Position numbers and translations under genes: made by a program. A stretch of DNA of 64,000 nt, from assembly GCA_900114885.1 (NCBI GenBank), contig FOUN01000008.1, positions 1 to 64,000 on the forward strand, in the 5' to 3' direction. The notes below the pieces were generated by a model, which saw nothing but the letters and a program-made list of their open reading frames with translations, ran no database searches and was not told where the DNA came from. Below are positions 62,120 to 64,000 of the stretch, piece after piece (the first letter of the stretch is position 1; each line of letters opens with the position of its first letter). This stretch comes from Psychrobacillus psychrodurans. Its GTDB lineage: Bacteria; Bacillota; Bacilli; Bacillales_A; Planococcaceae.

Positions 62120-62384
62120 ATTAGAAACTCCAATGAGCACAGTCATTAGACTTGGAACATTCGAGTTTCTAAATATCTGAGTTAATTATGTAAAGAACTG
62201 TTCTTTTCCATATTAAATACTTCATCTGTGAAAGTAGCTTGTAAAAAATGTCGATTTTCAGTAGTTTTTAAAAACTACTTTCATAATGTTTGCTTTCTAT
62301 GGTTTTATAACTATAATATGGTATATTAGTAATATAATTGGATTTGTTTTCCTTTTCTTTGGCTTAGAAGGGGGTGTAGGTTAG

Positions 62385-63671
62385 ATGAACCTAGGACAAT
62401 TGATCAAGTTAGAGCGGCAGAGACAGAATATAAAGCAAGAGGCATTGGCTATTGGTATTTGTGTCCCCTCTTATTTGAGTAGAATCGAAAACGGATTAGT
62501 CATTCCAAGTGAAGACATAAAGCATCATATTCTGATGAGATTGAATATTTCGTTAGACTCGTTGAATGGTAATCGAAATGAAAAGAAAATTGTTCAGTTT
62601 AAAATACGGTTCAAGCAGATTCTAAATTCACGAGACAAAAAGCTTGCTAAAGAGCTTCTTTCCGAAATTCATCTTTATATCGAGGAACATCCATTAGATG
62701 AAGAACGACTAACGTTACTTTTATTAGAAGCTCGCCTAATGGTTATGCTGCCTGAGGTATTGGATATGAAAAATAATATCCACATTTTGAAAGAATTCAA
62801 AAAAGAAATGACAATTGAACAGTTATTTTACCTCTACACGATTCAAGGTATCACTGCCTATCAAGATAATCAGTTTAGCCAAGCATCTCAAATTTTTAAG
62901 GAAGTCTTTCAGTTGATCAAAGGATTTCGAATGGACGACTGGGAGATGGCAGAACTATATTACATATCTGGGTTATCACTTTTATCTGAATCCCGCTACA
63001 TTCTAGCTATTGATTATGTAAAGGAAGCAATTTCATATTTCAATCAAGAGATTTTAATAGAACGATCGATTGAGTGTTTAATAATCCTAGGGATTGCACA
63101 AAAGAATACAGGACTCTTAAAGGAAGCTCTCGCTACTTTTGAAAGAGCTAGAGATATCAATTCAAAAATAGAATCCTCTGAGTTTAATGGCATGATTGAA
63201 CATAATTTAGGTTCCTGTTACTCATTACAAAAAGATTCTCATCAAGCATTGCAGCACTTTTTTTATAGTTTAGATGCAAAACATTTCCCTGATGATAAAG
63301 TTGTGACTATTTTATCTATTTTGAAGGAATATCACAAAAATGGTGATTTACAGAATGCATTAGTATGGCTACAAAAGGGGCTAGAGATATCCGAGCACCT
63401 ATCCAATAGCAAGAAGGATCTTTATACAAACCACTTCTCCGTATATGGAGCGATATTACTGGAGAAACAAGAGATTATCGCTATTTTTAAGAAAGCTTTG
63501 GATTATTTCGGTGGCAAGCAGGACTATAAAAATTGTATGATTTATTGCCACGTTTTAGCTAAGCGATTAGCTGAAACTAAACAATATAAACAAGCTTCAA
63601 TTTACTATGATTTAGGTTTTCATTTTCATTTGAAGCAATCAAAAGTATCTAGTTGGGAGGAATTGTCATGA
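62385..63671 (+). CDS. RRNPP-type regulator: XRE DNA-binding plus TPR peptide sensor
   Basis: A 428-residue protein. Residues 1-60 are an XRE helix-turn-helix (LGQLIKLERQRQNIKQEALAIG...YLSRIENGLVIPS). From about 75 the protein is all helical with TPR-type repeats, e.g. IQGITAYQDNQFSQASQIFKEVFQL, LIILGIAQKNTGLLKEALATFERARDI and HNLGSCYSLQKDSHQALQHF. The design is that of NprR, PlcR and AimR. Its stop overlaps the start of a secreted peptide gene by four bases (ATGA). AGAAGGGGGTG precedes the ATG. No phage genes are nearby, which argues against an arbitrium AimR. Confidence 0.9.
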   Translation: MNLGQLIKLERQRQNIKQEALAIGICVPSYLSRIENGLVIPSEDIKHHILMRLNISLDSLNGNRNEKKIVQFKIRFKQILNSRDKKLAKELLSEIHLYIEEHPLDEERLTLLLLEARLMVMLPEVLDMKNNIHILKEFKKEMTIEQLFYLYTIQGITAYQDNQFSQASQIFKEVFQLIKGFRMDDWEMAELYYISGLSLLSESRYILAIDYVKEAISYFNQEILIERSIECLIILGIAQKNTGLLKEALATFERARDINSKIESSEFNGMIEHNLGSCYSLQKDSHQALQHFFYSLDAKHFPDDKVVTILSILKEYHKNGDLQNALVWLQKGLEISEHLSNSKKDLYTNHFSVYGAILLEKQEIIAIFKKALDYFGGKQDYKNCMIYCHVLAKRLAETKQYKQASIYYDLGFHFHLKQSKVSSWEELS

Positions 63672-63790
63672 AGAAAATTGTATTTGGAGTTCTACTTTGT
63701 TTCGTTCTATTCACACTACCGGTTTTGAGTTCAAATCATCTTGCAGAAGACGACAAGCCAAAAATCACTTCTGTTGGCGATTTTATCTAA
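63668..63790 (+). CDS. secreted signalling pro-peptide (Phr/NprX-like), 40 residues
   Basis: A 40-codon gene directly coupled to the regulator. It begins with lysines and a hydrophobic export segment (KKIVFGVLLCFVLFTLPVLS) and ends in a polar tail with DDKPKITSVGDFI. Size, position and layout match pro-peptides of RRNPP systems, where a piece of the tail is cut outside the cell and re-imported by an oligopeptide permease. The tail faintly recalls NprX (SKPDIVG). Mature ends are not known. A terminator follows 35 bp later. Confidence 0.82.
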   Translation: MKKIVFGVLLCFVLFTLPVLSSNHLAEDDKPKITSVGDFI

Positions 63791-63824: not shown

Positions 63825-63860
63825 AAAAACGAGTCCTCTTCAGTACATGGACTCGTTTTT
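63825..63860 (+). terminator. terminator of the regulator-peptide operon
   Basis: AAAAACGAGTCC and GGACTCGTTTTT over a 12-base loop. Symmetric, so it may also serve the converging gene at the window end. Confidence 0.9.
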
Positions 63861-63891
63861 AATTATTAAATTGAACTGTCTCCATGATCTC

Positions 63892-64000
63892 TTATTCAAC
63901 CGTCACTTCTTCATCCAGTATAATATGTTGACTATATACCTCTACAAACTCCAAGGATTCTTCAATATTATCCACTAGTTCAAATACATCAAGAATCATT
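63892..64000 (-). CDS. 3' end of a minus-strand gene (partial)
   Basis: An open frame ends at TAA 63892-63894 and continues to the window edge, coding for an acidic segment (FELVDNIEESLEFVEVYSQH...LDEEVTVE). An ATG occurs at 63999, but without visible ribosome site, so it is unclear whether the gene is short or extends further. Function not recognised. Confidence 0.4.
   Translation of the reverse strand, partial: MILDVFELVDNIEESLEFVEVYSQHIILDEEVTVE

Follow-up and report, generated by a model that had tools for sequence, protein, structure and literature searches.

A 64,000-nucleotide stretch of the Psychrobacillus psychrodurans genome (contig FOUN01000008.1), referred to here as the window, carries near its end a predicted transcription regulator and a very short reading frame that overlaps its stop codon. 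This arrangement raises the question as to whether the two genes form a peptide pheromone system and, if they do, which promoters that system controls. The regulator gene (62385–63671, forward strand) starts with ATG and encodes 428 amino acids, predicted to form an HTH and a TPR superhelix, while the small gene (63668–63790, forward strand) is a conserved ORF that encodes 40 amino acids from the ATG at 63668. The reading that we favour, with a probability of roughly 0.78, is that of a chromosomal RRNPPA pheromone system, whose receptor would control both itself and an adjacent DUF4288 gene through a long-spaced operator.

A domain search placed HTH_3 at residues 7–45 of the regulator (E 9e-6) and also identified TPR_12 (E 8e-13); a TPR protein of 428 amino acids lies within the range of 250–500 that is used as a criterion for RRNPP(A) receptors. 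These domains, together with the match to the Rap/NprR fold described below, bear out the two-part RRNPP build proposed in the initial annotation. An orthologous regulator is encoded by 12 of the 19 Psychrobacillus genomes, the source genome included, at 66–94% identity. Across the family, related receptors were found in 157 of 261 genomes (E 1e-10), and a peptide gene stands beside most of those inspected. Furthermore, the view that the system is chromosomal rather than arbitrium has held up, as no relative was found in 50,697 phage records and no close one in IMG/VR. At one further locus (L184), the receptor gene is interrupted by a stop at codon 58, with an open peptide frame still following it.

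In the aligned promoters of all 12 orthologous regulators, GAAAG lies near position −155 and CTTTC near −102 relative to the start codon, separated by 43 bp in nine orthologues and by 42 in three. In the window, the left arm is GAAAGTAG (62230–62237, forward strand) and the right arm CTACTTTC (62275–62282, forward strand), with 41 bp between GAAAGT and ACTTTC. When inverted five-letter pairs were counted over the 12 promoters, this dyad was present in every one, as compared with 8 for an overlapping word, 5 for others and 4 for direct pairs, although genomes within a genus are related and such counts therefore overstate independence. The pattern GAAAGT-N40-42-ACTTTC occurs at exactly two sites in the 4.0 Mb source genome, both at this locus (62230–62282 and, outside the window, C16:64262–64313), and the reversed control at none. 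The same two places of the locus are matched in seven further genomes, in which other matches stayed near the control level; a control scan with six-letter arms at 42–44 spacing likewise returned chance matches only.

The second of these sites, found by the genome-wide dyad scan, points to the gene that converges on the peptide gene from the other side. Only the 3' part of this predicted target lies in the window (63892–64000, reverse strand); the gene continues to contig position 64206, and its start is thus beyond the window's end. Its product is a DUF4288 protein of 104 amino acids (Pfam E 3e-6). The dyad before this gene is recognisable in 12 of 12 species, being exact in eight and having a degenerate right arm in four, and the distribution of a DUF4288 gene of this type matches that of the regulator exactly, with both present in the same 12 of 19 Psychrobacillus genomes and the gene absent from the remaining seven. 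DUF4288 was not adjacent to the more distant receptors examined, which suggests that this target is specific to the Psychrobacillus clade. The open literature searched holds no mention of DUF4288. Direct reading of the sequence between the convergent genes also reveals a terminator-like hairpin, CGAGTCC...GGACTCG (63826–63861), with a T run on both strands and a loop of 12. The peptide gene and DUF4288 are separated in two species by an LCP-like (LytR-CpsA-Psr) gene, so named from its sequence.

The initial annotation had offered the ABC exporter just upstream of the regulator as a possible target. This candidate has been given up in favour of DUF4288: no operator-like dyad precedes the exporter, which is moreover not adjacent to the regulator in 4 of the 12 orthologous loci.

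The half-sites extend beyond the clade. Among 96 promoters of homologues outside it, GAAA and TTTC stand 43–45 bp apart in about 42, against a background of 2.6 promoters per gap. In a set of 63 promoters from which similar ones had been removed, the longer form TTGGGAAA-N43-45-TTTC is present in 18, as against at most 2 of 63 for TTGGGAAA and TTTC at any other window of three gaps and 0 in shuffles. One genus possesses a perfect nine-letter dyad, GTTGGGAAA-N44-TTTCCCAAC. In one genus (six loci), the receptors come as a tandem pair, in which each receptor has its own long-spaced dyad and only the second is followed by a peptide gene. The source genome also encodes a paralogous receptor–peptide pair (C28:133387–134682; 29% identity, peptide core ELPRPTSI), which is present in most of the genus and whose promoter carries GTTGGGAAA-N43-TTTC. 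Apart from the promoters of the paralogue, a looser scan of six genomes for TTGGGAAA-N43-45-TTTC yielded about as many matches as the reversed control, and no further targets are therefore claimed.

Inverted repeats can also form RNA stems, and neighbouring genes tend to travel together; the dyad might accordingly be an RNA element or the site of another regulator, with DUF4288 merely co-inherited. We regard this as unlikely. The half-site word itself, over and above its complementarity, recurs across genera in front of receptors of this family, and the right arm, which is often only TTTC, would make a poor stem; no Rfam match was obtained. Since the word and the spacing of 43–45 are shared while the spacer sequence varies, a DNA operator is favoured over an RNA stem. 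Some five helical turns separate the predicted half-sites, a greater distance than in any relative that we found described, and no 43–45 bp operator for such receptors was found in the open literature searched.

The position of the putative operator also bears on the sign of regulation. Direct reading suggests a promoter on the forward strand with a weak −35 element, TTGCTT (62290–62295), and, after 16 nucleotides, a good −10 element, TATAAT (62312–62317), whose region is conserved in the alignment of regulator promoters. Only 7 bp separate the right arm from this weak −35, an arrangement that makes activation of both promoters the likelier sign.

As the nearest described type, the initial annotation had named NprR–NprX, and one part of this comparison stands. 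A profile built from 100 homologues of the regulator matched NprR (2e-40), its best natural solved relative, as well as Rap3T (1e-38), other Raps and PlcR (2e-18). The structure model built from these 100 sequences reached a pLDDT of 93, whereas an earlier one from 12 sequences had been poor in the HTH, and its TM-scores on the target were 0.84 for RapJ and 0.82 for NprR. Asn274 of the regulator, aligned through Rap3T, occupies the RNPP-invariant Asn position and is kept in at least 90% of the 100 homologues; in RapF, the superfamily-invariant Asn that contacts the peptide backbone is N227 (PMC3601957). As modelled, the regulator is an RRNPPA receptor that lies nearest to NprR and Rap in fold.

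Were it a true NprR orthologue, the regulator would be bifunctional, with Spo0F dephosphorylated in the absence of peptide and degradative genes activated by a peptide-bound tetramer. The gene order is the same as in NprR–NprX, NprR is a top fold match as well as the best solved profile relative, and the K-P-x-I core of the small peptide resembles SKPDIVG (PMC5641580). Nevertheless, orthology is very unlikely. Over the 349 aligned positions of the TPR part, the regulator and NprR share only 18.3% identity, which falls short of the sequence-cluster rule of 30% identity over 80% (PMC10075063). Of the residues through which NprR contacts Spo0F, namely D107, Y118, E188 and Y223 (PMC4970707), the first, second and last are replaced by L104, E115 and I223; E188 aligns to M188, but may correspond to the adjacent E187, which is within one residue of gap placement. 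The peptide scored 14.7 and 14.1 bits against two NprX models whose cut-offs are 75 and 33, through its leader only. Matches of this strength are noise, and the models exceeded their cut-offs in 0 of 61 genomes; the NprX family search, without a match in 400 genomes of the class, is uninformative. In addition, NprR branches outside a group of 90 receptors, albeit with weak support. The low identity, the loss of most Spo0F contacts and the sub-threshold peptide scores together indicate that the regulator, although it probably works like the NprR and Rap systems, is not an orthologue of NprR.

The remaining question concerns the small gene. The regulator and the peptide gene overlap by four nucleotides (ATGA), with the TGA of the one running into the ATG of the other, and the 40-residue product, MKKIVFGVLLCFVLFTLPVLSSNHLAEDDKPKITSVGDFI, combines KK and a hydrophobic stretch with a polar tail that ends in EDDKPKITSVGDFI; the two frames are as the initial annotation had described them. 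By its adjacency, its length within 10–100 residues, its basic N-terminus and its hydrophobic core, the product agrees with the RRNPP(A) propeptide criterion. The Shine-Dalgarno sequence of the peptide gene, GGGAGGA (63655–63661, forward strand), lies inside the last codons of the regulator, where W-E-E-L is written TGG-GAG-GA. Among receptors ending in WE[DE]L, all 62 for which a peptide gene was detected use GAG at this codon, as opposed to 3 of 12 without one (Fisher 2e-9 for 62/0 against 3/9, a statistic that ignores kinship); across the orthologues, 29% of the codons for Glu are GAG. Two of the three exceptions are the broken peptide gene of P. antarcticus and a peptide that the detector had missed (L088).

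In all 12 Psychrobacillus orthologues, a start codon (ATG, GTG or TTG) overlaps the stop of the regulator gene, and the peptide frame is open with a KP[KEDS]IT core in 11 (10 of 11 besides the source genome). The initial annotation had held that broken frames beside a retained regulator would speak against a pheromone gene. Only P. antarcticus presents such a case, with a TAG at leader codon 7 beside an intact regulator and DUF4288 gene, and as both copies stem from the same assembly, a sequencing error is possible. Among six close species, differences within the peptide gene fall mostly in third codon positions, and its dN/dS is 0.21 (leader 0.23, tail 0.17), compared with 0.09 for the regulator. 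Judged by its overlap, open frame and dN/dS, the small ORF is more than a chance reading frame.

The likely pheromone core is DKPKITSV (63752–63775, forward strand), as suggested by core conservation across the family and by the repeat of one orthologue (G003), although its ends are approximate. In G003, where a TTG start overlaps the regulator stop, the tail consists of five copies of IQDKP[DE]ITS[IT]NK(FA), which would mark the mature pheromone unit. At another locus (L029 in G024, from position 2800), the propeptide downstream of a different family receptor repeats LADRVPEPWAVKYQ many times. Tandem-repeat propeptides are known from the NprR–NprX subfamily (PMC9765709). The comparison of peptide and receptor covariation that the initial annotation had proposed is not discriminating: the correlation of receptor distance is r 0.36 for the peptide core and r 0.45 for the leader, and as the core correlation is no stronger, we put it down to shared descent. 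The least likely of the alternatives, namely that the gene encodes a small protein, membrane-bound or secreted, that is produced along with the regulator, can draw on a leader about as constrained as the tail, yet it sits poorly with the family-wide core [DE][EQD]xP[RK]xT, anchored on its Pro and placed after a Sec-like leader, with the tandem repetition of the core in G003 and G024, and with the TPR receptor that adjoins in all cases.

Under the pheromone reading, the operon would yield the receptor and, by translational coupling, the 40-residue prepheromone, which is presumably secreted and then cut down to a peptide around DKPKITSV. This peptide may be re-imported by an oligopeptide permease, for which six oligopeptide-binding-type proteins of the source genome could serve, and bound in the TPR groove with N274 on its backbone. 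The receptor would recognise an inverted pair of TTGGGAAA-type half-sites (here GAAAGTAG), 41–45 bp apart and just upstream of the weak −35, at only two promoters, those of its own gene and of the adjacent DUF4288 gene, and would probably activate both. Peptide binding might alter how far the receptor reaches or how it oligomerises, such that the pair is switched together. Among known peptides, NprX and PapR turn receptor binding on, and AimP and AloP turn it off.

To our knowledge, little has been described of the operators that NprR-like receptors use. We lean towards the more general proposal that Planococcaceae and their neighbours possess a chromosomal receptor subfamily reading two inverted TTGGGAAA half-sites about five turns apart, in which the pheromone alters whether an elongated dimer or a tetramer can span both, the member in the window using this operator at just two promoters. 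An operator with a fixed 43–45 bp spacer across the family would put short DNA probes and a defined regulon of two promoters directly at hand for asking how the peptide changes receptor reach, while the cassette gives a context for seeking the function of DUF4288.

Of the known systems, PlcR–PapR similarly pairs an HTH–TPR activator with a downstream peptide gene, but the TPR domain of PlcR is shorter and its profile match weaker. AloR–AloP of Paenibacillus comprises chromosomal receptor–peptide pairs, several per genome, with an adjacent target gene; as described, it is set apart by its target, a Spo0E-like gene, and we found no description of an operator in that report (PMC7425212). AimR–AimP, the arbitrium system of SPbeta phages, shares with the cassette an HTH–TPR receptor, an operator whose two inverted boxes are unusually far apart and a target adjoining the cassette; the AimR spacer of 25 bp has been called unlike that of any other protein–DNA complex (PMC6458997). 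Unlike in AimR, the spacer here is 41–45 bp, the half-site is a different one, the predicted operator is also present in the receptor's own promoter, and the system is chromosomal, without phage relatives found. NprR–NprX differs in its peptide-contact residues and in that the predicted target of the present cassette is the adjacent DUF4288 gene. It nonetheless resembles the cassette in its HTH and TPR receptor of similar length and fold, its propeptide gene directly downstream and its K-P-x-I pheromone core, and it has been proposed that NprR, as a tetramer, occupies two DNA sites simultaneously (PMC4970707).
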